Below, piece after piece: positions 8,170-48,198 of a stretch of 64,000 nucleotides of DNA. A program made the position numbers and the translations under genes. The notes below the pieces were generated by a model. The model had not been told where the DNA came from. It did no database searches and saw only the letters and a list, made by a program, of their open reading frames with translations. The number at the start of each line of letters is the position of its first letter. Position 1 is the stretch's first letter. The DNA is taken from NCBI RefSeq assembly GCF_001642735.1, contig NZ_LWHM01000001.1, positions 248,001 to 312,000 on the forward strand, in the 5' to 3' direction. Source of the stretch: Pseudohongiella nitratireducens (GTDB taxonomy: Bacteria; Pseudomonadota; Gammaproteobacteria; Pseudomonadales; Pseudohongiellaceae).

Positions 8170-8339
8170 CGCCTGGGTATCATAGCCCCCATGGTAGACA
8201 ATAAGACCACGTGAAGCACATCGGGCCTCGCTCGAGAAAGTGGGTGGACTGTTTAAAGCCGTCAGGCTGAGTTTCCACCCACCGAGTGAGGCCCGATGTG
8301 CTGTAGTCGTCTACCATGGGGGGCTATGATGCCCAGGCG
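8170..8339 (+). repeat. Hairpin element A: 170-bp multi-stem palindrome with a conserved loop
   Basis: A nested inverted repeat. The outer stem is 8170-8199 with 8309-8339 (30 bp, one 1-nt bulge, one mismatch). The internal loop is 15 nt on the left (8200-8214) and 6 nt on the right (8303-8308). The inner stem is 8215-8234 with 8283-8302 (20 bp, one G/T-type mismatch). A 5-nt bulge lies at 8235-8239. The apical stem GTGGGTGG/CCACCCAC (8240-8247, 8275-8282) closes a 27-nt loop. The minus strand corresponds in orientation to element B at 48032-48198. The loop contains GCCGTCAGGC and the left internal loop contains AGACCACGT, both shared with B as reverse complement. The stems are unrelated in sequence to those of B. 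It fills the gap between ggt and icd. No open reading frame is convincing inside. Confidence 0.9.
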
Positions 8340-8373
8340 TGGCGGCACCTCGATGACCTAAACACCGGACACA

Positions 8374-8408
8374 AAAAAGCCGGAACAGATTAACTGCTCC
8401 GGCTTTTT
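8374..8408. terminator. Bidirectional Rho-independent terminator between ggt and icd
   Basis: AAAAAGCCGGAACAG-attaa-CTGCTCCGGCTTTTT forms a 10-bp GC-rich stem (one mismatch) with a 5-base loop, flanked by A on the left and T on the right. It can stop transcripts from both strands: icd on the minus strand, which ends 46 bases away, and anything reading through from ggt and hairpin element A. Confidence 0.85.
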
Positions 8409-8453
8409 AAATGTTGCCGCTCTTCAATGTGCGACTCAGTCTTTAGCAGACGC

Positions 8454-10715
<2,262 letters not shown>

Positions 10716-10900
10716 CTAGCATACATATTGAACGCGCGCCTTGAGAAACTGTCAGGCGCGGAAAAAAAGTGGTGCGAAGTATAGCACCACAGGCCCAATT
10801 ATGGTATCGAATAGCGTATCCTGTCCGAATCAACCTGAACAGAAAGCTGTCAGAAAATTGTTTTAATTACAACTAATTCAATAATATAGAGAGCATAACC

Positions 10901-11338
10901 ATGAATGAGAGTTTTACATATTCTTCACTCCTGCCGTCACTGCTGGGCGGTGTCATGATCGGTGCCGCCGCACTCATGTTGATGTCCTCTCATGGACGAA
11001 TCATGGGCATTTCCGGCATCACCAGCCGGTTATTGAAACCAGTAGCCGGTGACATTGACTGGCGGGTCAGCTTTTTGGCCGGCCTGATCGTCACTCCTCT
11101 CGTACTTCAGTTCAGTTCACGAGTCCAGATGCAGGTGGTGACAGACGTCAGCGCACCGACCCTGATACTGGCAGGGTTACTGGTTGGTTTTGGCACGGTG
11201 TATGGCAATGGTTGTACCTCTGGCCATGGTGTCTGCGGCGTTTCACGCTTATCCAGACGCTCCCTGGTTGCCACACTGACCTTTCTGGCGACCGCCATGC
11301 TGACCGCCACTTTATTGCGACTGGTCTGGGGAGCATGA
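10901..11338 (+). CDS. YeeE/YedE family sulfur-transport membrane protein, first half (PmpA-like)
   Basis: A 145-residue inner-membrane protein with four hydrophobic segments. The YeeE/YedE (DUF395) signature GNGCTSGHGVCG lies in the third segment region; in the fused relative TsuA the corresponding cysteines relay thiosulfate through the membrane. It is the N-half of a split transporter whose other half follows directly. The stop codon overlaps a possible ATG (11335) of the next gene, so the pair is translationally coupled. Followed by msrB and msrA, which suggests a link between sulfur uptake and repair of oxidised methionine. Substrate is inference. Confidence 0.85.
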   Translation: MNESFTYSSLLPSLLGGVMIGAAALMLMSSHGRIMGISGITSRLLKPVAGDIDWRVSFLAGLIVTPLVLQFSSRVQMQVVTDVSAPTLILAGLLVGFGTVYGNGCTSGHGVCGVSRLSRRSLVATLTFLATAMLTATLLRLVWGA

Positions 11339-11340
11339 TC

Positions 11341-11751
11341 ATGAGTCTGATTCTGCCATTTTTTACCGGTCTGTTATTCGGGGTTGGCCTGGTGATATCC
11401 GGAATGAGCAATCCGGCAAATGTGATTGCTTTTCTCGACCTGGCCGGTAACTGGGATCCCGGGCTTGCTTTTGTCATGCTTGGCGCCGTGGTCACCTTCG
11501 GAGCCGGTTTCCCCATCTTACGAAAACGACAGGGAAAACCCCTCTTCTCTGACAAGTTCACACTGCCTGCGTCTACCTCGCTGGACCGGAAACTGATCAG
11601 CGGTGCAATCATTTTCGGGGTTGGCTGGGGTATAGGCGGATTCTGCCCGGGCCCGGCACTGGTCAACGTCCTGACCGGCTCAGCACAGGGTTTGCTGTTT
11701 GTCGCTTCGATGTTAATTGGTATGCTAGTGGCCGTATACCGAAAATCATGA
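11341..11751 (+). CDS. YeeE/YedE family sulfur-transport membrane protein, second half (PmpB-like)
   Basis: A 136-residue membrane protein with four hydrophobic segments and the partner motifs [12 protein letters not shown] near the N-terminus and GGFCPGPAL near the C-terminus, whose Cys is conserved in the family. It pairs with the upstream half to make the full YeeE/YedE fold. I favour ATG 11341 because GGGGAG lies eight bases before it; ATG 11335 would add two residues and overlap the upstream TGA. A much longer open frame starting at 11212 runs over the previous gene and is not credible. Confidence 0.83.
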
Positions 11752-11779
11752 ATTTACCGAGATCACAGGAGAGCATGTC

Positions 11780-12226
11780 ATGAGCTACAAGAAGTCCGAG
11801 GATGCTGTGGCAGGCCTGACAGAGGAACAATATCGCGTCACCCAGCAAGATGCGACAGAGCGCCCGTTTCAGAATGCCTACTGGGACAACAAGGAACCAG
11901 GCCTGTATGTCGATGTGGTCTCTGGCGAACCCCTGTTTGCCTCCACTGACAAGTTCGACTCCGGCACCGGGTGGCCCAGCTTCACCCGCCCGGTCAGTGC
12001 GGACAATATTGTGGAGAAACATGACCACAGCCATGGTATGACCAGAACCGAGGTTCGCTCATCGACTGGCGACTCCCACCTGGGGCACCTGTTTCCAGAT
12101 GGTCCGGCCGATAAAGGCGGCATGCGCTACTGTATAAACTCCGCCTCACTGCGTTTCATTCCTGTTAACAAACTGGAGTCGGAAGGATACGGCGACTACA
12201 GCCATTTATTTGCGCAGGGAGAATAA
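11780..12226 (+). CDS. msrB: Peptide-methionine (R)-S-oxide reductase, single-cysteine and zinc-less
   Basis: Reduces methionine-R-sulfoxide in proteins and free methionine. The 148 residues include [41 protein letters not shown] and the catalytic [11 protein letters not shown]. Two oddities are visible. The CxxC pairs that hold zinc in many MsrB proteins are absent ([11 protein letters not shown] where others have Cys-x-x-Cys), and the catalytic Cys is the only cysteine in the whole protein. There is thus no internal resolving Cys, and regeneration must use another thiol. Start supported by AGGAGA seven bases upstream. Cotranscribed with msrA, five bases downstream. Confidence 0.95.
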
Positions 12227-12231
12227 AGATT

Positions 12232-12741
12232 ATGAGCGAACAACATGAAACAGCCATTCTTGCCGGCGGTTGCTTTTGGGGCTTGCAGCATTTACTGAGA
12301 GACAAGCCGGGCATCATAAGCACACGTGTCGGCTACTCCGGCGGTGATGTCAAAAATGCTACATACCGCAACCACGGCACCCATGCCGAAGCAGTAGAAA
12401 TTGTCTTCAATCCGGACATCATCAGCTATCGCCAGATACTGGAATTTTTTTTCCAGATCCACGATCCCACCACGGTCAACCGCCAGGGTAATGATATCGG
12501 CACCAGCTACCGCTCCGGTATTTATTACACATCAGAGCATCAAAAGAGTGTCGCCGAAGAAACGATCATGGACGTTGACGCTTCCGGGTTATGGCCGGGC
12601 AATGTCGTCACTGAAGTCAAACCGGCAGGCGACTTCTGGGAAGCCGAGCCAGAGCACCAGGACTATCTGCAGAAATATCCCGGCGGCTACACCTGCCATT
12701 TTGTGCGCCCGGACTGGGTATTGCCTCGCCGGGAAAAGTAA
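12232..12741 (+). CDS. msrA: Peptide-methionine (S)-S-oxide reductase
   Basis: Reduces methionine-S-sulfoxide, complementing MsrB. The 169-residue protein has the catalytic [13 protein letters not shown] with Cys in GCFWG, then [12 protein letters not shown] and the resolving Cys in [12 protein letters not shown]. Together with msrB it repairs both stereoisomers. The start codon lies five bases after the msrB stop, with AGGGAGAA overlapping the msrB end as ribosome-binding site, so it is the last gene of a four-gene operon beginning at 10901. Confidence 0.97.
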
Positions 12742-12765
12742 TGGCTAAGACAGTAGTGGCATGGA

Positions 12766-13227
12766 CTACACCCAGCGCCGAACCTGCTCACAATAAGCGG
12801 CGAAGTCTGCTGGAAATTTTTCCAACAAGCAGGCTTCTTCCGGTTCGATCTGGTAGCGGGTGATATATCTTACAAACAGCAGAACCACCAAAAATGCTGT
12901 GATATCAGCAAAAATAACAGCTGATCCCAGCAATATTATTACCATTCCTAAATAAATCGGATTGCGTGACACCGCAAAAACGCCTGCATTTAACAGCACG
13001 GTACTGTTTATAGGGTGCATCGGGTCCAGCGTAGCCTGATGTTGACGCATTTGTCGGGCAGCTACAAAAACGAGGCCGATGCCAGCAAGAATGCAGACCC
13101 CGCCGAGCAAACTGACAATGCGGTACTGCAACAACGCCAGAGGATAGAACCCCTGCAAAAAGTACATCAGCAACAGGGCCAGCATCACCAGCAGCAATGG
13201 TGGCAGTTTCAGTTCAAGTGATTTCAT
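12766..13227 (-). CDS. Isoprenylcysteine methyltransferase-like (ICMT/PEMT) membrane protein
   Basis: A 153-residue membrane protein with four to five hydrophobic segments and the C-terminal S-adenosylmethionine-binding pattern of the ICMT/phospholipid methyltransferase family: FAVSRNPIYLGMVIILLGSA followed by RYQIEPEEACLLEKFPADFAAYCEQVRRWV (Glu-Glu plus Y-x-x-Y/C-x-x-x-V-x-R-W). Bacterial members are mostly uncharacterised. Its ATG overlaps the stop of the sensor kinase gene by four bases (ATGA), so it is translated as the second gene of that pair. The methyl acceptor is unknown. Confidence 0.8.
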   Translation of the reverse strand: MKSLELKLPPLLLVMLALLLMYFLQGFYPLALLQYRIVSLLGGVCILAGIGLVFVAARQMRQHQATLDPMHPINSTVLLNAGVFAVSRNPIYLGMVIILLGSAVIFADITAFLVVLLFVRYITRYQIEPEEACLLEKFPADFAAYCEQVRRWV

Positions 13228-14678
13228 TGTTCGGGCATGATCGTTGGTAAGGTGACGATAAATTCACTGCCTTTCTGCCATTCACTTTTCGCTTTGATTT
13301 CACCGCCCAGAATCTGCGCGAGCCCCAGGCAAATTGACAACCCCAGCCCTGAACCATCATGGTCCCGATCAAGACCACTGTCAATCTGACTAAACGGTAC
13401 AAACAACTTCGACATATCCTGCTCACGAATACCGATCCCTGTGTCTTGAACACGGATCCGAATAACATCAGTTACCTCTCCCGCAGGTGTATTATTTCCC
13501 CGATTTGTACCCGCATCTTCAACAACAACAGTCACCTCGCCTTCATAAGTGAACTTAATGGCATTATTGATAAGATTGAGAAGTATCTGCTCGAGCCGGC
13601 ATTTGTTGCTTAACATACGCCCTTGTTGGCTGTCATTCAGCAGACGAAGATGGATGCCTTTGCGCTGAGCAATAGGTTGCATCAAGTCGACCACACGGGA
13701 CACCGATGCATTCAAACTAAAAGCCTCGCGGTCAACCCGGCTCTCACCCGCCTGAATTCTGGACAGTTCCAGAATATCATTGATCAATTCCAGCAAATGA
13801 TTGGAACTGGATTTTACTAACGACAACTGCTCTTTCTGAACGTCCGTTATTGGCCCAGACATACCCTGCAACAAGATAGAGGTATAACCAATAATGGCAT
13901 TCAACGGGGTTTTTAGCTCGTGCGACATGGTCGCCATAAAAGTCGACTTTGCCCGATCTGCCGACTCAGCATCGATCAATGCTTTCTCCAGCGCCGAGGT
14001 TCGCTCTGACACCCGGGTCTCCAACGCTTCATTTAACTCCGTCAACTTCCGTTGTTGTTCCTGCCAATCACTGACATCCCTGATGATCACGACGTACATC
14101 ACCGCACCTTCCCAGTGAACTGGCGCCAATGACAACTCTGCCGGAAAAAAAACGCCGTCACTTCGTTTACCCATTACCTGCAAAATATCGGACTGGTCCA
14201 GATTTAGCGGCTCAACCAAAAGGTCATTAACTGAACGGCCTAAACTATCGAGTGAATTTAAGACAAACATAGACTCAGCAGCAGGATTCATACTGAGTAT
14301 ATCCCCGTGATCGTTCAGGGTAAGAATGGCATTACGAGCCGATTGAATCACTGCTGAGAGTTGGGCCCGGCTGCGCTTTAACTCTGTGTCTGACTGCTGC
14401 AGGGCTTTCACAGCCTTATCAAGCTTGCCAAAGCCACGCCACATCATCACCAGTAACAGCAGTGACGTCACTGAAACAAAGAATATACCTTTAACCACAC
14501 TTAATTGGGCGACAACATCGGCGTCCCGGACGATGGCAAAAAGGAGGCGATCAGACAGGAAAATCCATAAACCGGATATGACTGCATAAATGCTGGCAAT
14601 AATAATGGAACGAGCGCCAAATTGAATTATCGGCGAGTCAACTTTTTGACTTTTCTTGCTGAGATGGCGTCCCATCAA
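13224..14678 (-). CDS. Membrane-bound PAS sensor histidine kinase (orphan)
   Basis: A 484-residue inner-membrane histidine kinase. Two transmembrane helices near residues 22-46 and 62-82 enclose only a short periplasmic loop, so the signal is probably membrane or cytoplasmic. A PAS domain (about 105-210, SARNAILTLNDHGDILSMNP) and a coiled coil follow. HisKA has the phospho-acceptor His in MATMSHELKTPLNAIIGY. HATPase_c carries NLINNAIKFTYEG (N box), DTGIGI (G1), LFVPFSQIDSG (F box) and GSGLGLSI (G2). No receiver domain or response-regulator gene is near. It overlaps the ICMT-like gene by four bases, so a link between sensing and membrane methylation is conceivable. Confidence 0.9.
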   Translation of the reverse strand: MMGRHLSKKSQKVDSPIIQFGARSIIIASIYAVISGLWIFLSDRLLFAIVRDADVVAQLSVVKGIFFVSVTSLLLLVMMWRGFGKLDKAVKALQQSDTELKRSRAQLSAVIQSARNAILTLNDHGDILSMNPAAESMFVLNSLDSLGRSVNDLLVEPLNLDQSDILQVMGKRSDGVFFPAELSLAPVHWEGAVMYVVIIRDVSDWQEQQRKLTELNEALETRVSERTSALEKALIDAESADRAKSTFMATMSHELKTPLNAIIGYTSILLQGMSGPITDVQKEQLSLVKSSSNHLLELINDILELSRIQAGESRVDREAFSLNASVSRVVDLMQPIAQRKGIHLRLLNDSQQGRMLSNKCRLEQILLNLINNAIKFTYEGEVTVVVEDAGTNRGNNTPAGEVTDVIRIRVQDTGIGIREQDMSKLFVPFSQIDSGLDRDHDGSGLGLSICLGLAQILGGEIKAKSEWQKGSEFIVTLPTIMPEQ

Positions 14679-14807
14679 AAGGACCTGCTATTTAAATTCG
14701 GGAATACGCGCCAGTTATACCACTGTAGTGGCAACCGGGCAATCTGATTGTCACTACTCATGCATTTCACCTTCTTAACAGAGAACCTGTTATCAGCAGC
14801 ATCACTG

Positions 14808-15374
14808 CTAGAAGAATTCCGGCAAATCCAACAGGGTCATGTAACGCTCATCGCTTATTTCTTCAGCAGTCAGTTCACCCCGCATAATGGCATTTACATC
14901 ACTGGCAATCTGGCGTAACGCCCTCAATCGCTCCTCTGGCTGCTCCACTGACAGCATAACCGTCCCCCAAAGACTCAGCATGGCGGTATTAATTTCCCGT
15001 ACACTGTTATCCTTTGCCCATTCAGAGGAAATTGCCAGTCCCAGTTCACTGCTTTCCTTCTCAGCCGCCGTCAACGTTTCACCTGACATTCCCATCAAGA
15101 CAGCCGGAGTGAGTTCATTCCACCCCGTACTCATCAAGTCAGATCCCTGGTAAAAACGGATAATCCAGTTCAGATACTGTTGCTGCGTCTGTTCCTGTTG
15201 ATTCTCAGCATCGACCTCATAGGCATTAAGAAAGAAGCCCCGTTCAGGCACATCATCTGGCCATGTGTTGCTACCTGTCAGTGACTGGCAACCGGCCAGC
15301 GAAATCATCAATACCAAAAAAACCATGCCGCGCCAGGCACTGCACTTCATCAACAAAACAGAATTCAAAATCAT
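14808..15374 (-). CDS. Predicted lipoprotein of unknown function
   Basis: A 188-residue protein with a lipoprotein signal peptide: hydrophobic GMVFLVLMISLAGC with lipobox LAGC, cleaved to leave a Cys-Gln-Ser start, which predicts the outer membrane. The mature part is mostly alpha-helical and acidic (EQTQQQYLNWIIRFYQGSD, EKESSELGLAISSEWAKDN) without a domain I recognise. The first ATG is chosen because AAAGG precedes it by eight bases; an internal Met at codon 9 lacks a ribosome site. The next gene on the same strand (15424-15762) lies 49 bases upstream and may be cotranscribed. Confidence 0.7.
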   Translation of the reverse strand: MILNSVLLMKCSAWRGMVFLVLMISLAGCQSLTGSNTWPDDVPERGFFLNAYEVDAENQQEQTQQQYLNWIIRFYQGSDLMSTGWNELTPAVLMGMSGETLTAAEKESSELGLAISSEWAKDNSVREINTAMLSLWGTVMLSVEQPEERLRALRQIASDVNAIMRGELTAEEISDERYMTLLDLPEFF

Positions 15375-15423
15375 CAGGATACCTTTCTAGGGTTAAACAG
15401 ATCAGGCTTAAACAGAAATTCCA

Positions 15424-15762
15424 TTAATGCCGGGCACCGCCAGCATCTTCTACGACATGAGGCGCTATATGAATGGCTGTCAGACGGTTCCCAGACAGCT
15501 CGACTTCTCCCGGATAACGGTCGCCCCCGGTCGCCGAAAACTCAAAACTGTAATATCGGCGCCAGCAAATGCCAGCCTCAGCAGAATAGGCAGGGCGCAA
15601 TTTCCGCAAGACAATACTTTGATCGAGCAGTTGCAGGCCAAGTTGCTCACAGCGCCGGGAAGCATGCTCCAACGCCCAGGCTTTTGCATCTCGTGATCGC
15701 CACCAGTGACTGATACAAAACACAAAAACGGCACCCCAGAACAGATGCGATAGCGTTAACAT
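15424..15762 (-). CDS. DUF3301 small membrane-anchored protein
   Basis: A 112-residue protein of the DUF3301 family, common in gammaproteobacteria and of unknown function. One N-terminal hydrophobic segment (about residues 5-20, LFWGAVFVFCISHWW) is followed by the family pattern ALEHASRRCEQLGLQLLDQS, then RRYYSFEFSATGGDRYPGEVELSGNRL. The invariant Cys and the YSFEFSxxGxxRYxGxxxLxG stretch are present. The short N-terminal anchor suggests attachment to the inner membrane. It precedes the lipoprotein gene on the same strand. Confidence 0.8.
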   Translation of the reverse strand: MLTLSHLFWGAVFVFCISHWWRSRDAKAWALEHASRRCEQLGLQLLDQSIVLRKLRPAYSAEAGICWRRYYSFEFSATGGDRYPGEVELSGNRLTAIHIAPHVVEDAGGARH

Positions 15763-15918
15763 GAAGCATTCCCAATGTGGTTGAAACGATATTTATGGTA
15801 CCAGAATTCAGATCTGGCTTCTGCAGCGGGGAACGGTCATGCTCTGACCTTGTGCCATGTCTGCTGGGTGTGTTGGATACTCACTGGAAAAAAGTGTTTA
15901 TCTGGCGTGCCAATTGAA

Positions 15919-15942
15919 AAGGGCCCGACAATGATGTCGAGC
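15919..15942 (-). terminator. Terminator downstream of bfr
   Basis: AAGGGCCCGACA-atga-TGTCGAGCCCTT pairs over 12 bp with one mismatch around a four-base loop. Read on the minus strand the stem ends in CCCTTTTC, a short T run. It lies 57 bases beyond the bfr stop. Confidence 0.65.
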
Positions 15943-15998
15943 CCTTCTCTTTGTGATATCGATTGTTAATCCTGGCTACCAGCGCCGTAAGGTTGAGC

Positions 15999-16463
15999 TT
16001 ACATCATGGATTGATGGTAGTTCTCGATACCCACAGATTCGATCAGTGAAAGCTGGGTTTCCAGCCAATCTACGTGCTCTTCTTCACTTTCCAGGATGGA
16101 GACAAGTAGTTGTCGGCTCACGAAATCATCAATCGATTCTGCGTATTTGATGCCTTCTCGCAAATCTGGAATCGCTTGCTGCTCAAGTTTCAGGTCACAG
16201 TCCAGCATTTCTTTGGTATGTTCACCAATCAGCAGTTTGCCCAGGCTTTGCAGGTTAGGCAGCCCTTCCAGGAACAGAATCCGCTCAATTAGCTGATCTG
16301 CATGCTTCATCTCATCGATGGATTCCTCGTACTCTTTATCAGCCAGCTTGAGGAGACCACGGTCTTTGTACATGCGTGAGTGGAGAAAGTATTGGTTAAT
16401 GGCAATCAACTCATTGCCCAGCGCCTTATTCAGGTGCTTGATCATGGTTTTATCGGATTTCAT
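15999..16463 (-). CDS. bfr: Bacterioferritin
   Basis: Iron-storage ferritin that assembles as a 24-mer, oxidises Fe(II) at a di-iron centre and binds haem between subunits. The 154 residues begin [20 protein letters not shown], include the ferroxidase ligands in [14 protein letters not shown] and [19 protein letters not shown] (Glu, Glu, His), the haem-ligand Met in DEMKHAD, and [17 protein letters not shown] near the end. Start at 16463 is preferred: GGGGG precedes it, and the earlier ATG (16487) would add eight residues absent from the family. Its redox partner bfd lies upstream in the same orientation. Confidence 0.95.
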
Positions 16464-16626
16464 ACTGTTTACCCCCAACGCAAACATTTCATAAATTCAT
16501 TGGGGCAAGGATGAGGCTTCAAGGGACGCATGTCAAGACAAACCAACAGCTAAGCTATTGAATTTCAAAGGAAAGATAATGAAAACGATTACGATTTTCG
16601 GTCAGAGAGCGCCAGACAGCAATAGG

Positions 16627-16839
16627 CTAGGCCGCATAAGCAATCGACTTGATATCGACGCCAGTGCTCATCATCTGATCCATGGTCTCATGCATGATCT
16701 GCCTGGCAAGTTTAGCGCAGCGACCACAATCACTACCCAGGCCAAGATCTTTACGCATCTGTGACAGACTCGCATTATTGCTTTCGCAATACTCGCGGAT
16801 ATCATGGTCAGTCACTTGTTGGCAGATGCATACGTACAT
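16627..16839 (-). CDS. bfd: Bacterioferritin-associated ferredoxin
   Basis: A 70-residue [2Fe-2S] protein that reduces bacterioferritin haem and releases stored iron. The start MYVCICQQVTDHDI gives Cys4 and Cys6, and GSDCGRCAKLAR gives Cys38 and Cys41, the C-x-C...C-x-x-C pattern of Bfd. An upstream ATG (16881) adds 14 residues not found in the family. It precedes bfr on the same strand with a 163-base gap, so the two genes may have separate promoters. A weak Fur-like sequence sits about 85 bases upstream of the start; iron repression of bfd is the norm in relatives. Confidence 0.95.
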   Translation of the reverse strand: MYVCICQQVTDHDIREYCESNNASLSQMRKDLGLGSDCGRCAKLARQIMHETMDQMMSTGVDIKSIAYAA

Positions 16840-16924
16840 GCGGTAATTCCTGAATAATTGCGCCGTTGGGGAAGAGCGCATCAGCTTTATTTATCGAACG
16901 AATGTGATTTTAAATGTGAATAGG

Positions 16925-16940
16925 AATGATTGTCAATAAC
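16925..16940 (-). promoter_or_regulatory. Possible Fur box upstream of bfd
   Basis: The plus strand reads AATGATTGTCAATAAC. Against AATGATAATCATTATC, part of the 19-base Fur consensus, 11 to 12 positions agree by eye. The site is about 85 bases upstream of bfd, a gene repressed by Fur-Fe in E. coli and Pseudomonas. The match is imperfect and context carries most of the weight. Confidence 0.33.
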
Positions 16941-17023
16941 AATTCTACCTGAAAATCATCCCCAGCCCTGATTTCACATCCAGCCAAAACCTGCACTGCC
17001 TTCTTAACACCGGTCGGCATAGC

Positions 17024-17052
17024 TTGCTGAGCCGAATATAGACTTATATAGT
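17024..17052 (+). promoter_or_regulatory. Sigma-70-type promoter for the secreted protein at 17096
   Basis: TTGCTG (17024-17029) and TATAGT (17047-17052) are separated by exactly 17 bases, close to the TTGACA/TATAAT consensus, and point at the gene starting at 17096. The predicted leader would be about 40 bases. Confidence 0.55.
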
Positions 17053-17095
17053 GTTGTCAGAAGAATAAAAGCCGTTACTTCGGAGCCAGACTGCT

Positions 17096-18127: not shown

Positions 18128-18183
18128 TAGCACCTTGCAGCGCAGATCAGCCGGCCTGAGACGATCCGTCTCAAAGCATGTGG

Positions 18184-20584: not shown

Positions 20585-20593
20585 CTTTTCTGT

Positions 20594-38571: not shown

Positions 38572-39639
<1,068 letters not shown>

Positions 39640-39656
39640 TCAATATTGATCAACGC

Positions 39657-39692
39657 AAAAGGGCCAGCCTGGAAACAGACTGGCCCTTTTTT
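39657..39692. terminator. Bidirectional terminator between the Asp/His-rich gene and a lipoprotein gene
   Basis: AAAAGGGCCAG and CTGGCCCTTTT (39657-39667, 39680-39690) pair over 11 bp around a 12-base loop, with A runs on the left and TTTTTT on the right. It lies between two convergent stop codons and can serve both. Confidence 0.85.
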
Positions 39693-39693
39693 G

Positions 39694-40032
39694 TTAGCGG
39701 CGCACTCGCCGCAAGACCTGCACTTCCCCATCAGTAATTTGACGCATCAGGTCAGGTGTCTCAAACTCGATTCGGCTCTCCACTTGTTGCCCCATGGCAT
39801 TCAGGCGAATATGGTCCTCGTCAATCCACTCATAATTCAGATGCAATCCCAGATCATGTACGGTAATTTCCCCGACATTATATTCCAGAGTAACAGGCTG
39901 GCCATCGAACTCGGCTCGCCAGGTTCCCTGAATCATGACCTGTTTGGAAAGCGGTGGTGACTGAGTGCTGCACGCGACCATCAATCCCAACAGGCTAGCC
40001 AGCGCCCCAACTTGCAACACCCTGTTTATCAT
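39694..40032 (-). CDS. Small predicted lipoprotein
   Basis: A 112-residue protein with lipobox LMVACSTQ after a hydrophobic signal (MINRVLQVGALASLLG). The mature ~90 residues are beta-rich with regular strand-turn spacing: IQGTWRAEFDGQPVTLEYNV, GLHLNYEWIDEDHIRLNAMG and VLRRVRR. I do not recognise a family; the I-x-G-T-W opening resembles small lipocalin-like folds, which is only a shape analogy. Start at 40032 is chosen because the signal begins there; the upstream ATG at 40074 adds 14 residues overlapping nothing known. Confidence 0.68.
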   Translation of the reverse strand: MINRVLQVGALASLLGLMVACSTQSPPLSKQVMIQGTWRAEFDGQPVTLEYNVGEITVHDLGLHLNYEWIDEDHIRLNAMGQQVESRIEFETPDLMRQITDGEVQVLRRVRR

Positions 40033-40190
40033 CTGGTTTACTCCTGTAAATAGCATTCTCCATTGAGATGCCACACCTTGTCATGTTTTACCGTGAACTT
40101 CCAGTCAGGGTATTTTCGGTGCACAATGCTGCTGCATTTCATATACAGCAACAAAGGCCAGTCACTGGCCCGGACCAACGAGGTGAGAAT

Positions 40191-40421
40191 ATGGCAGGTC
40201 ACGGTAGTACGCTCAAGCCTGGGAAATATGAACACTATAAAGGCAACTATTATGAAGTGATCGATGTTGCCAGGCATAGTGAAACAGGCGAGCTGTTAGT
40301 GGCTTATCGACCACTGTACGGTGAAGGAGCCCTCTGGGTTCGCCCACTGGACATGTTTACAGAGACTGTCACAGTGAACGGGCAAACCCGGCCCCGTTTT
40401 CGTTACTCTGGCGACACCTGA
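40191..40421 (+). CDS. DUF1653 family small protein
   Basis: A 76-residue cytoplasmic protein whose core [38 protein letters not shown] and [17 protein letters not shown] is nearly the DUF1653 consensus; function is unknown. GAGGTGAG just before ATG 40191 fixes the start; the frame is open upstream to 40068 but that part is not conserved. It ends 19 bases inside the convergent trhO gene. Confidence 0.9.
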
Positions 40422-41413
40422 GACTGGCCAGCTTCAGCGCTGCGTTGCTGTGCCTTGAAGGCCAGTTTTTCCTGACGACGCCGCTCGATCACTGTCGACA
40501 TCGGCTCGCCTATATGAGTCTCGCCTCGCTCTTGTGCCAGTTTGATCTGGCGCTCACGCTCGGCATAACGTCGTAACTGATCCTGGCTGTGCTGGTCGTA
40601 GCAATGCGGACAACTGATCCCGGGGCGGAAATGTGGTGAACTCTTTTCTGCTTCGGTAATCGGCATACGGCAGGCATGGCACTGATCATAAGAACCACGC
40701 TCTAACCGGTGGTTAACCGTTACCCTGTTATCAAAGACAAAACACTCGCCCTTCCATTTGGACTTGGTCTCTGGCACTTCCTCCAGGTACTTCAGGATAC
40801 CGCCTTTCAGATGGTAGACCTCTTCAAAGCCCTGTTGCTTGAGAAACGCCGTTGATTTTTCGCAGCGAATACCACCCGTGCAAAACATCGCCACTTTTTT
40901 ATGTTTTTTGGGATTCAGGTTGCTTTCTACGTACTCAGGGAACTCGCGGAATGCATCAGTACTCGGGTTAACAGCCCCTTCAAAAGTACCGATTTCATAC
41001 TCATAGTTATTGCGGGTATCAATCAACAGAACATCAGGGTCAGAAATCAGATCATTCCATTTTTTGGCATCCACATAAGTGCCCACCACCTGGTTCGGGT
41101 CGACATCCTCAACCCCCATCGTGACAATTTCTTTCTTGAGTTTGACCTTGGTACGGTAGAACGGATTTTCTTCCGTGTAGGACTCTTTTACTTCAATTCC
41201 GTTAAATCGATCATCCTGGGCCAACCAGGACAGGACAGCATCGATCTCTTCACGAAGACCCGCGATAGTGCCATTCAGCCCTTCACGCGCCAGTAACAGC
41301 GTGCCTTTTACCTGATTATCCAGCATGACCCGGTGCAATGGGGCACGCAAATTCTCAAAGTCGTCAAGCCTGACGAAGCGGTACATGGCCGCAACTACAA
41401 CCTTGTCAGTCAT
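40403..41413 (-). CDS. trhO: tRNA uridine(34) hydroxylase, rhodanese-like
   Basis: Makes 5-hydroxyuridine at tRNA position 34 by an O2-dependent route, the first step of cmo5U/mcmo5U. The 336-residue protein (E. coli YceA/TrhO family) has an N-terminal acylphosphatase-like domain ([20 protein letters not shown]), the rhodanese domain with active-site Cys in [17 protein letters not shown], and a Cys-rich C-terminal segment ([22 protein letters not shown]). Start at 41413 follows GGAGAAGAGA directly. It overlaps the DUF1653 gene by 19 bases tail to tail. Confidence 0.95.
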
Positions 41414-41474
41414 TCTCTTCTCCTGGTAGCTGACCGGATCGTAAATCCGGCGCACGGGTTAAGGGGGCGGGATT

Positions 41475-43292
41475 TTACCCTAATTCGTACTCGTGCTCAT
41501 TGATTATACGCAAAAATTCCTGACCGAATTTTGACAGCTTGCCTTGTCCGACACCGTTTACTGCCAAAAGTTGCTGTTCGTTAAGCGGGCGCAGCTGCAC
41601 CATATCAAGCAGGGTGGCGTCATGAAAAATGACATAGGGCGGCACATCATGCTCATCAGCCAGCTGTTTGCGACACTGGCGAAGATCTTCCCAAAGGCGC
41701 TGATCTTCCGGCAACAGATCAACCACAGCACGTTTGCGGCTGCTTGCCCGGCTGACGTCTTTCACATCTTCGCGCATCATTAATTCTTTTTCACCACGCA
41801 GGACTGGCCGTGCTTTTTCTGTCAGATAAAGCGCCCCAAACTGCTGATGGTCAGCACCAAGATAACCGCCCGCAATAAGTTGCCTGAAAACCGACTGCCA
41901 TTGGCTTTTATCCAGCTCACGTCCGATGCCGAATGTTGAAACCCGGTGGTGCCCATTTGATAGTATGCGCTCACTCTCAACGCCCAGCAGAATTTCTGTC
42001 GCATAGCTGACGCCAAACCGCTGACCAGCGCGATACACTGCCGATAATGCCTTCCTGGCCGCTTCAGTGCCATCCCAGGTTGGTGGCGGCTGCAGGCAGG
42101 TGTCGCAGTTGCCACAGGCATCGGGTGCACTCTCACCAAAATAATGACGCAGCGCCTGCCGCCGACAGCTGGTGATCTCACACAACCCCAGCATGGCATC
42201 CAGGCGGATTTGCTCCTGGCGCTTGAATTGCTCATTGCCTTGTGAGCTGTCCAGCATCTGCCGTAATTTGATCACGTCCTGTAAACCATAGACCATCCAG
42301 GCTGTCGCTGCTTGCCCGTCGCGTCCGGCGCGACCGGTTTCCTGATAATAGGACTCCACGCTTTTGGGCAAATCCAGGTGCACAATGAAGCGCACATCCG
42401 GCTTATCAATTCCCATTCCAAAGGCAATCGTTGCCACGATAATGACGCCGTCTTCGCGTAAAAAGCGTTGCTGATTAAACATCCTCAGATCTGAGCTCAA
42501 ACCGGCATGATAGGGCAAGGCATCAAAACCCTGCTGTTGCAGCCAGGCAGCTACCTCTTCGGTTTTCCGCCGCGACATACAGTAAATGATCCCGGCATCA
42601 TCAGGGTGCTCACGTCGGATAAACGCCAGCAATTGTTGGCGCGCATTACGTTTTTGCGTAATCCGGTACTGTATGTTGGGACGGTCGAAACCAGAGACAA
42701 AATGCGGGGCATCCTGCAAACCGAGCCGGCTGGCGATTTCTTCCCGGGTCGCAACATCGGCTGTTGCTGTCAGCGCTATTCTGGGGACATGAGGAAAACG
42801 CTCCTGAAGCAAGGAAAGCGACAGGTAGTCAGAGCGAAAATCGTGCCCCCACTGCGAAACACAGTGCGCTTCATCAATAGCAAACAAGGCAATATCCAGC
42901 GACTCCAGCAGCGCCAGGGTACCACTTTGGCTGAAGCGCTCGGGCGCCAGATAAAGCAGATCCAGCTCCCCTGCACGCAATTGCTGCATGACTTGACCAT
43001 AGGCTTCCGACGACAGGCTGGAGTTGATGAATCCGGCGCGCACGCCCAGCTCATCCAACGCATCGACCTGGTCTTTCATTAACGCAATCAACGGGGAAAT
43101 AACAATGCCGACACCTGAGCGGACCAGGGACGGGATTTGATAGCAAAGAGACTTACCACCACCGGTAGGCATCAGCACCAGGGCATTTTGACCACTAACA
43201 ACGGTATCAATAATGTCTGACTGAACACCCCGGAACTGCTCGTATCCGAACACTTTCCGCAGAACATTCAGCGAAGGTTGGATTTCGCTCAT
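41475..43292 (-). CDS. recQ: ATP-dependent DNA helicase RecQ
   Basis: A 605-residue 3'-5' helicase of the RecF recombination and fork-repair pathways. Motif I is [14 protein letters not shown], motif [16 protein letters not shown], motif [10 protein letters not shown], then [33 protein letters not shown] and [11 protein letters not shown]. The zinc site is [17 protein letters not shown] plus CGNCDTC. A C-terminal HRDC domain begins near 520 ([20 protein letters not shown]). All family parts are present and of normal length. It lies six bases downstream of the DUF3014 gene and could be cotranscribed with it. Confidence 0.97.
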
Positions 43293-43298
43293 GAGGGG

Positions 43299-44165
43299 TC
43301 AATCAGCCTGGAGACGCTCCCGGTATGCAGGTAAACGCTGTTTGAGCCGCTGCAGGTTCTCGGGACCAATGCGAATCAACTGTTTTTGCACAGGTGGCAG
43401 GCTTTCGTAACGGTTTTCTGCATAAATGTATTGCACAGTGGGCTTGATCAACTGATAGGGCCCCTCATCTGGCGTAAACGCCATGACCTGCTCAATGGCC
43501 CTAAGCACAACCTGATCAAAATCTTCCTGAAAACCTATTTCGGCATAAGCTTCCTGGAACAAAGGCTTCATCTGTCGATACAGGGACATGACAGCGGTCG
43601 GTTCCATCTCCGTTAAGGTGCTGATCATCGGCTCGTAGCGCTGATAATTGGCAGTTGCCAACTCGTAGAAATTGTCACCCACTTCATTGACCTCAAATTC
43701 GCCGGGGACACGTCGCAACGGATACTCAAGCTGCGGCAGCTCACCTTGCGAAGCATTGTGAACAAATACGACAAACTTCCTGATCACATCGTCAGGCGCC
43801 AGCAGGCGCAGCAGACTTGCACCCAGTTCCATTTCAGCCAGGCGATTAAACAGCATGGTATCGCTTTGATTCAAGGAAGGGAGTTCAACTTCTGTCTCTG
43901 ACATACTTTCGGCACCAGGCTGCTGCTCATCCACTACCTGATTATTAGCAGCTGGCGCAGGCACTTGCCTGACTGGCCGGGTTTCTTCAGCTTCTTCCTG
44001 TGCTGGCGCGACCTGGACCGGTGTTTCCACAGGACGCGGGATCGGCGTATCCAGCTCGACCGTCCGGGTTGTTTCCGGTGGTTCGAACGTCATCGCCAAG
44101 TAAATAAGAAAGCCCATCCCGATCAGGGAGAGCAGTGCAACGATTGCCAGGGTTTTATGCGCCAT
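43299..44165 (-). CDS. DUF3014 membrane-anchored protein
   Basis: A 288-residue protein with one N-terminal membrane helix (LAIVALLSLIGMGFLIYLAM), a Pro/Glu-rich linker of ~70 residues, and a DUF3014 domain: LLRLLAPDDVIRKFVVFVHN, NYQRYEPMISTLTEMEPTA, YRQMKPLFQEAYAEIGF and AIEQVMAFTPDEGPYQLI. The domain should be periplasmic. DUF3014 has no assigned function. Start at 44165 puts the helix at the N-terminus; the longer frame to 44258 adds a Cys-rich stretch without support. Neighbours: recQ downstream (six bases) and an exported helical protein upstream. Confidence 0.85.
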   Translation of the reverse strand: MAHKTLAIVALLSLIGMGFLIYLAMTFEPPETTRTVELDTPIPRPVETPVQVAPAQEEAEETRPVRQVPAPAANNQVVDEQQPGAESMSETEVELPSLNQSDTMLFNRLAEMELGASLLRLLAPDDVIRKFVVFVHNASQGELPQLEYPLRRVPGEFEVNEVGDNFYELATANYQRYEPMISTLTEMEPTAVMSLYRQMKPLFQEAYAEIGFQEDFDQVVLRAIEQVMAFTPDEGPYQLIKPTVQYIYAENRYESLPPVQKQLIRIGPENLQRLKQRLPAYRERLQAD

Positions 44166-44268
44166 AGTGAGCGGTATTCTTGCACAGGGGATAGAACACG
44201 GGCAATAGAGAAACCCGGGGAATGACGACATTACCCGGCATAGCCACAATTGCGCCACAATTAGTCTT

Positions 44269-45354
44269 TTACCAGCTTCTCAGCCTGGCCCGGCGAACCA
44301 TACGGCCTAGTTCGTTATTCATCTCACGCATTTCTTCCAGCCGTGCTGCCACTTCAGCCTCGTTATCAGCTGTAAATCCTGGATGTTCCTCACTGAAATT
44401 CTCCATCTCATCGGCCGTTTGCATTAACGCATAGCGAGCACGCTCAAGCTGGTTCACACGCTCGCGCCGCGCCGAGCGATAATAGTCCGGATTATTGACC
44501 TGCTGCTGGTAGCAGACCCGCTGAGTCCCTCCAGCGCCGTCGGTTACAAGGCGGCACACTGTCTCAGTGACAAAACGGGGCTCGTTAAGCAGCAGATCAT
44601 CCAGGCGCTGGTAATCATACTGTCTTGCCATTTCTATTTCTGTCGAGGCAATAGCGTTGAGCAAATCCCACTGCTGGCTGGCATTCTGACGCTGCCGCGC
44701 CTCATCCAAAGCCCTTCGCTGCTCCTGGATCAACTCTCGGATTGCCATGATTGCCTGGGTCGACCCGGGCCGTAGCAGCAAGTTTTCCCGCGAGGCGGTA
44801 ATCTGCCATCGACTATAGTCCAGTAAGGCTGCTGTGTACTCCACACTATCCGGATCATGAAGGCGCCGCTGAATCTGGAACAGCAAATGCGCCGCAGCAT
44901 CGGTGCCCTCCCAGTCACGAAGTGACTGTCGTGTCGCTACCAGCGCCTTCAGGATGTCGACCTGGCTCTCATCGTAGAGGCCATAATTAAGTCGAGCCAA
45001 TTGCAATGAGTCAGACAGTAATTGCTCTGCGGTTTCATGGTTGTTCAACTCCTGTTGCAGCCGGGCCAGATCCTGCTGGACTTCCAGGCGAGCGGGATCA
45101 TAAGGACCCGCAGTCTGATTCAGGGTTGCCAACCTTTGCTCCAGCGCTGCCGCACTGTTCAGTAATTGCGCTCTGGCTGCGGAATCGTCAGGCTCAAGTT
45201 CCTGCGCGCTCTCTTCGTCAGAGGGCTCGCCAGCCGCATCTACTTCTGCTTCTGCTGCGTGGTTTTCCAACCCTGGCGCAATCCACAGCAAAAACACCGA
45301 GAGCAAGCAACACTGTCTGAACAAGCTTAGATACTGCTGAATATGTATACGCAT
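44269..45354 (-). CDS. Exported helical protein with TPR-like repeats
   Basis: A 361-residue protein with an N-terminal hydrophobic signal (CCLLSVFLLWIAPGLENHAA), an acidic linker, and helical repeats. The segment LEVQQDLARLQQELNNHETA, EQLLSDSLQLARLNYGLYDE, SQVDILKALVATRQSLRDWE resembles kinesin-light-chain/TPR units (~42-residue spacing). A long coiled coil closes the protein. Two cysteines in TETVCRLVTDGAGGTQRVCYQ probably form a disulfide. No family is recognised. The start is uncertain among several ATGs (45354, 45378, 45402); the one giving a compact signal is used. The DUF3014 gene follows on the same strand after 103 bases. Confidence 0.68.
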   Translation of the reverse strand: MRIHIQQYLSLFRQCCLLSVFLLWIAPGLENHAAEAEVDAAGEPSDEESAQELEPDDSAARAQLLNSAAALEQRLATLNQTAGPYDPARLEVQQDLARLQQELNNHETAEQLLSDSLQLARLNYGLYDESQVDILKALVATRQSLRDWEGTDAAAHLLFQIQRRLHDPDSVEYTAALLDYSRWQITASRENLLLRPGSTQAIMAIRELIQEQRRALDEARQRQNASQQWDLLNAIASTEIEMARQYDYQRLDDLLLNEPRFVTETVCRLVTDGAGGTQRVCYQQQVNNPDYYRSARRERVNQLERARYALMQTADEMENFSEEHPGFTADNEAEVAARLEEMREMNNELGRMVRRARLRSW

Positions 45355-45571
45355 ACATCCAGTATACGCCAAGGCCATTACCAGGCAATCCACCCCAATC
45401 ACAGCCCGTCATGTCAATATTATTGTAAGCACTTACTACCAAATATCAAAATCATTCTAATTCAGCATCTTACAGCCAATATTGTCACGTAATCGTCACA
45501 ATACTTTTATCAGACTGTCAAATCCGGCCATTAAGGTATCCACTAACTTGGATACAGCTGGAGACTATCGT

Positions 45572-46387
45572 ATGAAGTCGATCAACCCACCCCAGAAAAA
45601 GCGGTATCGATCCATCTTTATTTCCGATCTCCACCTTGGCTTCAAAGGTTGCCAGGCTGACCTGTTGATCGACTTTCTTAATAAAACAGATTCAGACTAT
45701 CTCTATCTGGTTGGCGATATTTTCGACGGCTGGGAGTTAAAAAAGCGTCCCTACTGGCCTGATTCTCACCAGCAAGTAGTAAAACTGATTCTGAATAAAG
45801 CGGCCAATGGCACGCGTGTCATCTACACACCAGGCAACCATGATGAACGTGCCCGGGATTTTTGTGGGCACCAGTTTGACAGAATTGAAGTCAAACACTC
45901 AGCGGTGCATGAAACCAGCGCTGGCAAGAAAATGCTGGTGCTGCACGGTGACCAGTTCGATACCGTGGTAAAAATCTCACCAGTACTGGCTCACCTGGGC
46001 AGCACCATGTACGGTCACTTGCTATTTATGAACCGCATCGTCAATGGCGCACGGCGACTGTTCGGAAAACCGTACTGGTCACTGGCTGCACACCTGAAGC
46101 ACCGGGTAAAAAACGTGGTCAGCTATATTGGCCGTTTTGAGGAAGCCGTCATTAACTCGACCCGAAGCCAGCAGCTCGATGGCGTCATTTGCGGTCACAT
46201 CCACCATGCTGAAATCACCAGTTTTGGTAAAACGCTGTACTGCAATACCGGAGACTGGGTTGAGAGCTGTACCGCGCTAATCGAATCCGCTGATGGGCAG
46301 TTGCAGATTCTGCGCTGGGCAGATGCTGATGAACGCGCCACCGAAAGCGAAGAAGAACACGATAAAGCGCTCCCGGAAGCCGCCTGA
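45572..46387 (+). CDS. LpxH-like metallophosphoesterase (UDP-2,3-diacylglucosamine diphosphatase family)
   Basis: A 271-residue calcineurin-like phosphoesterase. The metal-binding motifs are in order: FISDLHLGF (D-x-H), YLVGDIFDGWE (G-D), TPGNHDE (G-N-H-D), LHGDQFD and ICGHIHHAE (G-H-x-H). It belongs to the COG2908 branch used for UDP-2,3-diacylglucosamine hydrolysis in lipid A synthesis, but the long middle segment (FMNRIVNGARRLFGKPYWSL) marks the larger LpxH-like subgroup whose substrate is not proven. Start at 45572 has GGAG eight bases upstream; 30 codons before it lack support. Confidence 0.87.
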   Translation: MKSINPPQKKRYRSIFISDLHLGFKGCQADLLIDFLNKTDSDYLYLVGDIFDGWELKKRPYWPDSHQQVVKLILNKAANGTRVIYTPGNHDERARDFCGHQFDRIEVKHSAVHETSAGKKMLVLHGDQFDTVVKISPVLAHLGSTMYGHLLFMNRIVNGARRLFGKPYWSLAAHLKHRVKNVVSYIGRFEEAVINSTRSQQLDGVICGHIHHAEITSFGKTLYCNTGDWVESCTALIESADGQLQILRWADADERATESEEEHDKALPEAA

Positions 46388-46461
46388 TCCCCTGGCAGTT
46401 GACCCTGATTTGACCCATAATCGACTGCAATCGATTTTCAGGGCATTTATAGGAGGGGAGA

Positions 46462-47889
46462 ATGAGCGACCTGGACCTGTCATTTTATCTGAATGGGCAA
46501 TGGGTTGATGCCAGCGAACGAAAGCAGCTTGCTGTCATTAACCCTGCAACGGAATCACCGCTGACCCATATCGCCATGGGCACAGCTGATGACGTCAACC
46601 TCGCGGTAAAAGCTGCCAGGGATGCGTTTCCGTCCTGGTCAACGACCAGCCGCGAAGAGCGCCTGCAGATACTGGACAAAATCATAGCTGGCATCAAAGC
46701 ACGAGGCGAGGAGCTGGCTCAGGCTATCAGTCAGGAGATGGGTGCGCCGATCAGCTTTGCCCGCACTGCCCAGGTCGGCACGGGCATTGGCCATTTCGCC
46801 ACCGCGCGACAAATCCTCGCTGATTTCGAATTTGCACACCTGCGCGGCAAAACCCTGGTTTGCCAGGAACCTATCGGTGTCTGTGGCTTAATTACTCCCT
46901 GGAACTGGCCACTAAATCAGGTCAGCTGCAAAGTAGCGCCGGCGCTGGCCACCGGCTGTACCATGATTCTGAAACCCAGTGAAATGTCTCCGGTAAGCGC
47001 CCGCATTTTGACTGAAATTATTCATGATGCCGGTGTCCCGGCTGGTGTCTTCAACCTGGTCAACGGCGACGGCCCTACCGTAGGTGCGGCAATGTCCTCG
47101 CACCCTGACATCGACATGATGTCTTTTACCGGCTCCACACGCGCCGGACGGGAAGTTGCCAAAGCGTCAGCTGATACGATCAAGCGCGTCAGCCAGGAAC
47201 TGGGCGGCAAATCTGCCAATATCATTCTTGATGATGCCGACTTCCCTGCAGCCGTAAAAGGCGGCGTACTAGGCTGTTTCGGTAACTGTGGACAATCCTG
47301 CAACGCACCGACCCGCATGCTGGTTCCAGCATCCCGAATGGACGAAGTGATTGAAATTGCCCGCGCTGTGGCCGCCAAAGCTATCCCCGGCAATCCTGCC
47401 GATGACGCTACCCGGATTGGCCCGGTGGTCAGCCAGACTCAATACGATCGCATCCAGTCACTCATCCAGGCTGGCATAGATGAAGGCGCAACACTGGTCG
47501 CCGGCGGAACAGGCAAACCTGACGGCCTGGATACAGGGTATTTTGTCAAACCAACCGTCTTTGCTAATGTCCGCAATGATATGACCATAGCAAAGGAAGA
47601 AATATTTGGCCCGGTATTATCCATCATCGCTTACCAGGATGATGACGATGCTGTGCGTATTGCCAATGACTCGGAATATGGGCTATCGGGCTATGTGTCA
47701 GGTGAGCAGGATCATGCCCGGCAAATTGCCCGCCGCATGCGTACCGGCATGATCCACCTGAACGGCGCCAGCACAGATTTCTCTGCACCATTTGGTGGGT
47801 TCAAGCAGTCTGGCAATGGTCGGGAATGGGGCGTTGAGGGGTTCCATGAGTTTTTGGAGACCAAGGCGATCATGGGTTATGGGGGCTAG
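46462..47889 (+). CDS. NAD(P)-dependent aldehyde dehydrogenase
   Basis: A 475-residue aldehyde dehydrogenase. Cofactor region: TPWNWPLNQVSCKVAPALAT and SFTGSTRAGREVAKASADT; general base Glu in QELGGKSANIIL; nucleophile Cys in GNCGQSCNAPTRMLVP; the C-terminal SEYGLSGYVSGEQDHARQIA and GGFKQSGNGREWG are standard. The substrate aldehyde cannot be told. A strong AGGAGGGGAG precedes the ATG. Downstream lie hairpin elements C and B, then the slyD terminator. Confidence 0.94.
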   Translation: MSDLDLSFYLNGQWVDASERKQLAVINPATESPLTHIAMGTADDVNLAVKAARDAFPSWSTTSREERLQILDKIIAGIKARGEELAQAISQEMGAPISFARTAQVGTGIGHFATARQILADFEFAHLRGKTLVCQEPIGVCGLITPWNWPLNQVSCKVAPALATGCTMILKPSEMSPVSARILTEIIHDAGVPAGVFNLVNGDGPTVGAAMSSHPDIDMMSFTGSTRAGREVAKASADTIKRVSQELGGKSANIILDDADFPAAVKGGVLGCFGNCGQSCNAPTRMLVPASRMDEVIEIARAVAAKAIPGNPADDATRIGPVVSQTQYDRIQSLIQAGIDEGATLVAGGTGKPDGLDTGYFVKPTVFANVRNDMTIAKEEIFGPVLSIIAYQDDDDAVRIANDSEYGLSGYVSGEQDHARQIARRMRTGMIHLNGASTDFSAPFGGFKQSGNGREWGVEGFHEFLETKAIMGYGG

Positions 47890-47919
47890 ATCGGCCAGCA
47901 ACGGCGCAAAATAGAGAGC

Positions 47920-48031
47920 GGTCAGGACATCATAGAACCGGTGGCAGACGACCACAGCACATCGGCCGACGCTCGGCGGGCGGAAACTCAGCCTGGCGGC
48001 TTCGGACAGTCCGCTCGCTCATTCGAGCTGC
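47920..48031 (+). repeat. Hairpin element C: left half and apex of a third element, interrupted by element B
   Basis: Aligned with the reverse complement of element A, this stretch has an outer left arm (47920-47949, sharing ATCATAG and GGyAGAC), the 6-nt GACCAC (47950-47955), a 20-nt inner left arm starting AGCACATCGG (47956-47975), apical stem GCGGGCGG/CCGCTCGC with one mismatch (47976-47983, 48011-48018), a 27-nt loop with GCCTGGCGGCT (47984-48010) and the 5-nt bulge TCATT (48019-48023). The right inner arm begins CGAGC as required but breaks after about eight bases, where element B begins. Sequence after B (TTGTGC, then TTGGTGCTATT near 48211) resembles the missing right part. Confidence 0.72.
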
Positions 48032-48198
48032 GGGCAGACCATCCCTTCACATACCTCAGCCGACCACTGCCTAACGCCCTTCACCCGGCAGCCGAAAACT
48101 CGCCTGACGGCTCAAACAGTTCGGCTGCGTTTTCGGGTGAAGGGCGTTAGGCAAAACGTGGTCTAACTGGCTGAGGTATGTGAAGGGATGGTCTGCCC
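48032..48198 (+). repeat. Hairpin element B: 167-bp perfect multi-stem palindrome with a conserved loop
   Basis: The outer stem (48032-48061 with 48169-48198) is a perfect 30 bp. The internal loop is GACCAC on the left (48062-48067) and 15 nt on the right (48154-48168, containing ACGTGGTCTAA). The inner stem TGCCTAACGCCCTTCACCCG (48068-48087 with 48134-48153) is a perfect 20 bp. Apical stem GCAGCCGA/TCGGCTGC (48088-48095, 48121-48128) encloses a 25-nt loop with AAACTC, GCCTGACGGCT and AAACAGT; the 5-nt bulge GTTTT (48129-48133) follows. Stem lengths and loop positions equal those of element A, yet the stem sequences differ throughout. No reading frame is convincing. Confidence 0.92.

Follow-up and report, generated by a model that had tools for sequence, protein, structure and literature searches.

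In a 64,000-nt stretch of the Pseudohongiella nitratireducens genome (the window; contig NZ_LWHM01000001.1, positions 248,001 to 312,000), copies of a hairpin element stand in two spaces between convergent genes. Element A, an A-type hairpin (8170-8338, + being the putative folded strand), lies between the genes for gamma-glutamyltranspeptidase and monomeric isocitrate dehydrogenase; element B, a B-type hairpin (48032-48198, putative folded strand -), and element C, a truncated A-type copy directly abutting it (47918-48031, -), lie between a gene for an aldehyde dehydrogenase and one for an FKBP-type isomerase. All three are copies of one dispersed hairpin element, which encodes no protein and is multicopy, mostly intergenic and patchily distributed between related species, with a tip loop common to distant bacteria and arms that change together. 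They represent a real, widespread and apparently mobile hairpin family, with a common tip and sequence-free stems.

Read in the same orientation, both complete hairpins have an outer stem of about 30 bp (A, 8170-8199/8309-8338; B, 48032-48061/48169-48198), a 6-bp helix GACNAC:GTNGTC (8205-8210/8303-8308; 48062-48067/48158-48163), a 20-bp stem (8215-8234/8283-8302; 48068-48087/48134-48153) and an 8-bp apical stem (8240-8247/8275-8282; 48088-48095/48121-48128). The conserved apical loop has 27 nt in A (ACTGTTTAAAGCCGTCAGGCTGAGTTT, 8248-8274, with an inner mini-hairpin AGCC-GTCA-GGCT) and 25 nt in B (ACTGTTTGAGCCGTCAGGCGAGTTT read on the - strand, 48096-48120). One arm bears all three bulges (A, AATAA at 8200-8204, GTGA at 8211-8214 and a third at 8235-8239; B, 48129-48133, 48154-48157 and 48164-48168), the 6-bp helix sitting between a 5-nt and a 4-nt bulge; the 5-nt bulge beside it is AATAA on the + strand in A, and TAACT on the + strand, or AGTTA on the other, in B.

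The original prediction had placed two hairpins here, with unrelated stems and common unpaired segments. Both are present and fold far better than shuffled sequences (126-nt cores, DNA fold, AAACTC orientation: z -8.5 for A and -11.4 for B, 0/200 shuffles as good for either), and A and B have the loop and bulge pattern in common while differing in stem sequence. Of the geometry proposed, the outer, 20-bp and 8-bp stems and the loops stood, whereas the supposed 6/15-nt internal loop is the 6-bp helix between the 5-nt and 4-nt bulges. The two-copy picture was also incomplete, a closer relative of A having been overlooked: C ends where B starts and retains one arm, the loop and the apical stem, the remainder of the other arm being gone. 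A tail, TTGTGCCGTGT, lies beyond the outer stem of B (48199-48209) and recurs behind many other copies (CCTTGTGC...).

Throughout the genome from which the window was taken (the window genome, 3.4 Mb), the loop pattern was detected at 26 places with up to three mismatches, and its reversed control at none. A covariance model of the tip (R1, made from 20 sequences) gave 45 matches, A and B among them; alignment A3 comprised 20 of the 32 elements of alignment A2, A-type loops being excluded because MAFFT placed their gap at the end. Elements here measure about 170 bp, with the termini GCGGTCAGG...CCTTGTGCC, and fall into two subfamilies, one with the A-type loop AAACTCAGCCTGACGGCTTCAGACAGT (in the orientation of the original prediction) and one with the B-type loop AAACTCGCCTGACGGCTCAAACAGT. 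Tandem units, [A truncated][B] and [B truncated][A], recur at several loci, and copies that are truncated retain one of their ends and are often cut off at fixed places, both here and among tandem half-elements in Flavobacterium. Decayed copies also exist: the one at C26:105327 has lost its tip, and the one at C26:107402 has a shortened arm.

The copies are mostly extragenic. By open reading frames (ORFs) called on length alone, with slightly different cut-offs for copies and gaps, 19 of the 31 copies counted (out of 34; 15/25 loci) were flanked by convergent genes, the figure for the gaps in sampled stretches of the genome being 44 of 281; one of the 34 was inside an ORF call of at least 150 aa. 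The flanking ORFs vary from copy to copy.

Paired changes in the stems were assessed in alignment A1, which holds 29 of the 38 copies collected from the window genome, nine truncated or doubtful ones having been removed. Standard pairs filled 95.0% of 1324 cells, versus 78.6% in shuffled alignments and at most 40.0% in slid structures; both sides had changed at 30 of 46 pairs, double-change cells numbered 223 versus 71.8 in shuffles, and the covariation score was 0.440, compared with 0.149 for shuffles and no more than 0.084 for slid structures. Because the copies are related, this covariation is descriptive, but its effect is very large. Across bacterial groups, the 8-bp apical stem had no common sequence, yet 81.3% of its cells were paired, with a covariation score of 0.966 (0.223 shuffled, at most 0.326 slid). 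The original prediction was to be abandoned if only its own copies existed, or if the others were unpaired or did not covary; the 45 tip-model matches and the strong paired changes went the other way, and because of both the hairpins are not the product of chance.

The exact loop pattern was found in 21 stretches from 16 named genomes, which belong to six groups: eight Bacillota, among them five Lachnospiraceae, Flavobacterium lotistagni, a Campylobacteraceae bin, a Nitratifractor bin, three Nitrospirota, one Desulfobacteraceae and one Omnitrophica bin. The records are mostly bins, two Lachnospiraceae and the Flavobacterium not being labelled as such. By eye, the predicted fold places nearly all of these loops on a stem (poorly in L031 and L043; the tip stem alone in L040). 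All 16 genomes matched R1, with 1-16 matches each and at least two in 15 of them. The conservation of the loop across groups is partly by construction, because the genomes were picked by their loop, a bias that does not apply to stem pairing.

Distribution among relatives was patchy; surveys of more than 40 genomes ran under stricter filters, with loss of weak matches. In the family of the window genome 7 of 137 genomes matched R1, the six others with 1-4 matches each, and genome-wide 12 of 14 congeners had no R1 match at E 0.001 under the stricter filters, the other two having one weak match each. At the B site both flanking genes were retained in all 14 congeners, and the hairpin stretch was reported matched in none. 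In the family of carrier G001, 34 of 299 sampled genomes matched, two of them with at least 21 matches each. Exact searches of virus contigs with three patterns gave no match, nor did plasmids searched with B or phages searched with A.

Mismatches within the stems bear on which strand folds. They were counted under a wobble-blind alignment scheme in 114 of 120 elements, those with fewer than 25 pairs being removed (in the window genome, 30 of the 34 loop-pattern elements rather than all 45 model matches). On the functional strand G.T outnumbered A.C (216 vs 122), both in the window genome (54 vs 14, 30 copies) and outside it (162 vs 108, p 0.0012 ignoring kinship); the excess was seen in the window genome, G009, G011 and G015, and in the window genome it is what would be expected if the functional strand must fold. 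A.G mismatches likewise exceeded C.T (475 vs 56). Of the bulges of at least 2 nt, 244 were in the 5' arm and 102 in the 3' arm, A making up 491 of the 992 bases of the 5' bulges. These mismatch and bulge counts indicate that the folded strand is probably the one reading ACTGTYTGA...GAGTTT. The loop, the bulges and the inner mismatches are conserved between copies. In the window genome, 28 of 34 elements carry a motif A[AG]T[ACT]AG at a distance of 48 nt from the loop; in Lachnospiraceae it stands at 53 nt (38 hits in 40 elements), and it was absent from the 5' arms of Desulfobacteraceae (0/11) and Campylobacterota (0/15); as a common motif it is suggestive only.

A different record was found in the outer arms of carrier genome G167, whose elements reach roughly 300 bp. 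In 16 of its 18 elements (two without a bounding motif were excluded), 974 of 1027 outer-arm pairs were Watson-Crick. Between copies, arms with at least 50 aligned nt were 60% alike (shuffled, 52%), against 89% for the loop plus 40 nt on each side. Being near-complementary yet barely alike between copies, these outer arms fit the copying of one arm from the other. A 62-nt arm matched its own other arm at 100% over 58 nt, and the next best matches, which include two other known elements and in several cases lie in or near elements, reached 69-78% over most of the length; because the match was perfect only with its own two arms, no donor sequence was seen elsewhere. At one locus in three Lachnospiraceae genomes, with flanks 86-90% alike, adjacent pairs had changed together; since this variant is also present in a copy at another locus, one copy may have converted another there. 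Template switching that maintains stems is a described process, in the part of PMC8794818 concerned with it. Folded-strand selection and arm-to-arm correction, offered by the original prediction as alternatives, both find support, in different parts: the loop, the bulges and the window-genome G.T excess speak for the one, and the G167 outer arms for the other. From these sequences, the outer arms would be renewed by copying, and the loop and bulges kept by selection on function.

As to known systems, Rfam gave no match at gathering score in the window, and in seven loci searched up to E=10 it gave three matches, none on a hairpin; only an FMN riboswitch scored above the gathering threshold (L037, 6901-7060, -), on an 8-kb Lachnospiraceae stretch that also carries one copy. 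The open-licence literature, which was the scope of the search and was also searched with the loop letters, yielded no description of the hairpin family; both searches agree with the original prediction, which knew of no described family with these traits. Integron attC sites are recognised as folded single strands through unpaired landmarks, their stems being variable, and carry the boxes GTTRRRY/RYYYAAC. The working mode of the hairpins may be comparable, with recognition of a folded strand by its unpaired landmarks; identity with attC was dropped, GCCTAAC/GTTAGGC occurring in B but being unconserved over the copies in A1.

The layout resembles that of repetitive extragenic palindromes (REPs) and REPINs, which the relevant parts of PMC3733652 describe as dispersed, non-autonomous extragenic palindromes with unpaired landmarks, arranged singly, as inverted dimers or in clusters, often between unidirectional or convergent genes. 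Inverted dimers, as in REPINs, were found here as seven inverted groups in the window genome (6/7 ordered -,+) and ten in three Lachnospiraceae genomes (10/10), that is 16/17 in the (-,+) order. In contrast, REPs measure 20-40 bp and carry GTAG or CGTC tags, a size and tag definition outside which the ~170-bp elements fall, the family spanning ~170-300 bp with a complex 25-27-nt loop; nor was a cognate RAYT gene seen close to the repeats or flanked by them, and the loop is common to distant groups on unrelated stems. The hairpin family is thus REP-like in layout and unlike REPs in size, tags and transposase. TIRtrons/TIRYT, as far as PMC3733652 treats them, are likewise long, partly self-complementary repeats in moderate numbers, with dimers and clusters, but they lie on either side of a Y1 transposase, some having GGGGWSAS in common, whereas no flanking transposase was seen for the hairpins. 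ERIC, Correia and other miniature inverted-repeat transposable elements (MITEs), in the portion of PMC10969869 about them, and PATEs, as named in PMC4853749, are also short intergenic palindromes without a transposase; MITEs, however, are thought to derive from insertion sequences and typically have direct repeats, whereas no parent insertion sequence turned up for the hairpins among the flanking ORF clusters annotated, and in the hairpins the stem sequence is free and the tip is conserved.

The recurrence of one tip on varied stems in distantly related bacteria makes it probable that something recognises the tip and spreads the hairpins. We favour, with a probability of about 0.5, a family of mobile hairpin elements moved in trans, with one strand bound through the tip and bulges and the outer arms renewed by copying. 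Under this reading, in which movement itself is inferred, an enzyme acting in trans would bind one folded strand through the tip loop (ACTGTYTGA-minihairpin-GAGTTT) and the bulges, the strand being more likely single-stranded DNA at replication forks than RNA. Outer-arm complementarity would be restored by copying arm from arm, through template switching or self-primed snap-back synthesis, so that the stem sequence would drift freely and the tip and bulges would be held by selection. A bolder version, which we put forward only tentatively, is a class of mobile DNA in very distant groups in which nothing but the tip loop and bulges is fixed, a trans-acting enzyme takes the folded strand and self-primed arm copying remakes the outer stem, leaving its sequence free and its arms perfect; Y1 transposase and reverse transcriptase are each absent from some carriers.

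Several observations weigh against the favoured mobile family. Across groups, two of five measures of paired change did not stand clear of the shuffles: the count of double-change pairs was reached in 433 of 500 shuffles and that of further pair types in 73 of 500. No G.T excess was detected in G001 (37 vs A.C 36), in 11 single elements of other genomes (16 vs 19) or in the G167 outer arms (11 vs 17), and the p values for G.T over A.C are overstated because copies are related. The one-sidedness of the bulges came mostly from the window genome (96 vs 7), Flavobacterium and Campylobacterota; the three Lachnospiraceae genomes had 43 such bulges in 5' arms and 50 in 3' arms. Both arms might also be altered by ectopic conversion of one copy by another. 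Aligned element ends showed no clear target-site duplication by eye and no clean empty site; at the B site the congeners carry an extra ORF, and because of it they do not offer one. A replication-strand bias was rejected, since orientation relative to GC skew was inconsistent between groups: 19/27 in the window genome (with one extra copy, C23:97785), 14/20 in Lachnospiraceae, 11/15 in G167 and 2/15 in two Campylobacterota genomes, inverted groups being omitted, and, by hand, 13/20 among the matches listed for G434 (one copy near the switch point omitted), 4/7 among those listed for G343 (an inverted pair omitted) and 1/7 in G198. Finally, a helper gene was found neither near the hairpins nor by domain searches, although the original prediction had suggested a common neighbour or helper protein; flanking ORFs, Y1_Tnp and RVT_1 were all searched. 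The 998 hairpin-flanking ORFs formed 20 clusters present in at least three genomes, the widest in ten, and the three widest, the ones annotated, were of ABC ATPase, histidine kinase and flavin oxidoreductase types, with nothing specific among them. Two stretches bounded by copies of opposite orientation, one of 4.4 kb in G167 and one of 2.6 kb in G343, were considered as candidate autonomous units and rejected, their ORFs being mostly of ordinary families (five of the six tested were ABC ATPase, GNAT acetyltransferase, GntR, FdhD and HAD; one matched none).

Other explanations account for parts of these data. If the strand were transcribed and the hairpin acted as a regulatory, protein-binding or 3'-end RNA, mobility being secondary, the G.T excess in the window genome, G009, G011 and G015, the surplus of A.G over C.T, the inner mini-hairpin and the position of most copies at the 3' ends of convergent genes would fit; yet stems of up to 144 aligned pairs, with only 11 G.T among the 1027 outer-arm pairs counted in G167, are unlike selected RNA helices, the element has no Rfam match and the ORFs beside copies are not constant, so that we consider a structured RNA unlikely. 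The same G167 arms, near-perfect and with rare, roughly symmetric mismatches, would suit old, inert repeats that owe their palindromic form to template switching alone (quasipalindrome correction), a process already in print in the part of PMC8794818 cited above, with no selection for the folded form. Correction alone, however, would wipe out the bulges and inner mismatches, and both are conserved between copies together with the loop, which is also conserved across groups, partly owing to the choice of pattern; decayed copies with a lost tip or shortened arm indicate, moreover, that intactness is not automatic, and inert repeats appear improbable.

Mobilisation of a REP/REPIN-like element by a Y1 (HUH) transposase of the RAYT kind would agree with the single, inverted-pair and clustered layout and with a folded hairpin bearing unpaired landmarks, and Y1-like ORFs were found 171 bp from a copy at L029 (score below the Pfam cut-off) and 2.7 kb from one in G167. 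We nevertheless regard it as hardly probable: the elements are far larger than REPs; Y1_Tnp was present in only 9/16 and 5/9 carriers of two sets and was absent from G434, a genome almost wholly in one contig with at least 21 copies, although many of the other carriers are incomplete bins; and of 33 loci related to Y1, searched for the most part with flanks of 1.5 kb, L029 alone had a hairpin, itself a locus fetched for its hairpin. The sole Y1_Tnp match of the window genome was a Y1-like protein with a DnaA_C domain and no hairpin in the surrounding 7 kb. This protein (345 aa; L048, 892-1929, -, C14) has a DnaA C-terminal helix-turn-helix and, by eye, a degenerate HUH motif. That the hairpins are remnants of a retro-element, spread by a reverse transcriptase by way of an RNA copy, seems very improbable: truncated tandems that keep one end, such as C before B, and are often cut off at fixed places in the window genome and Flavobacterium, and RVT_1 in 8 of the 10 carriers tested would fit, but RVT_1 was absent from the window genome, for all its 45 tip matches, and from G003, and a strong hairpin makes a poor template.

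One tip of 25-27 nt is carried on sequence-free stems by the window genome, Bacillota, Bacteroidota, Campylobacterota, Nitrospirota, Desulfobacteraceae and Omnitrophica, which implies either an unrecognised, widespread recombinase or polymerase-linked process, or a remarkable constraint. The helper could be sought in high-copy carriers almost in one contig, such as G434. How long palindromes remain perfect during sequence drift is naturally recorded in the G167 arms, a record relevant to template switching and to the origin of compensatory changes.

Some minor features were observed beside the copies. In the congeners, the ORF at the site corresponding to window positions 47890-48250 is about 400 bp long and VOC/glyoxalase-like by eye (L221-L234), and other long hairpins, unrelated in letters, lie downstream of it in L227, L229, L231 and L234. 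Between the two same-orientation decayed B-type copies of the window genome (L218, C26, ~105.3-107.4 kb) are a HipA_C-domain protein and a small helix-turn-helix protein. Contig 12 of Flavobacterium lotistagni (L039/L045/L150) contains tandem half-elements of ~100 bp in an array ending in one complete hairpin, and downstream of the hairpin in the Lachnospiraceae loci L027, L032, L038 and L046 lies a longer repeat of ~200 bp, part of which is open reading frame (LGFDGYTVRIALRARTKGEWLASRDRD...).

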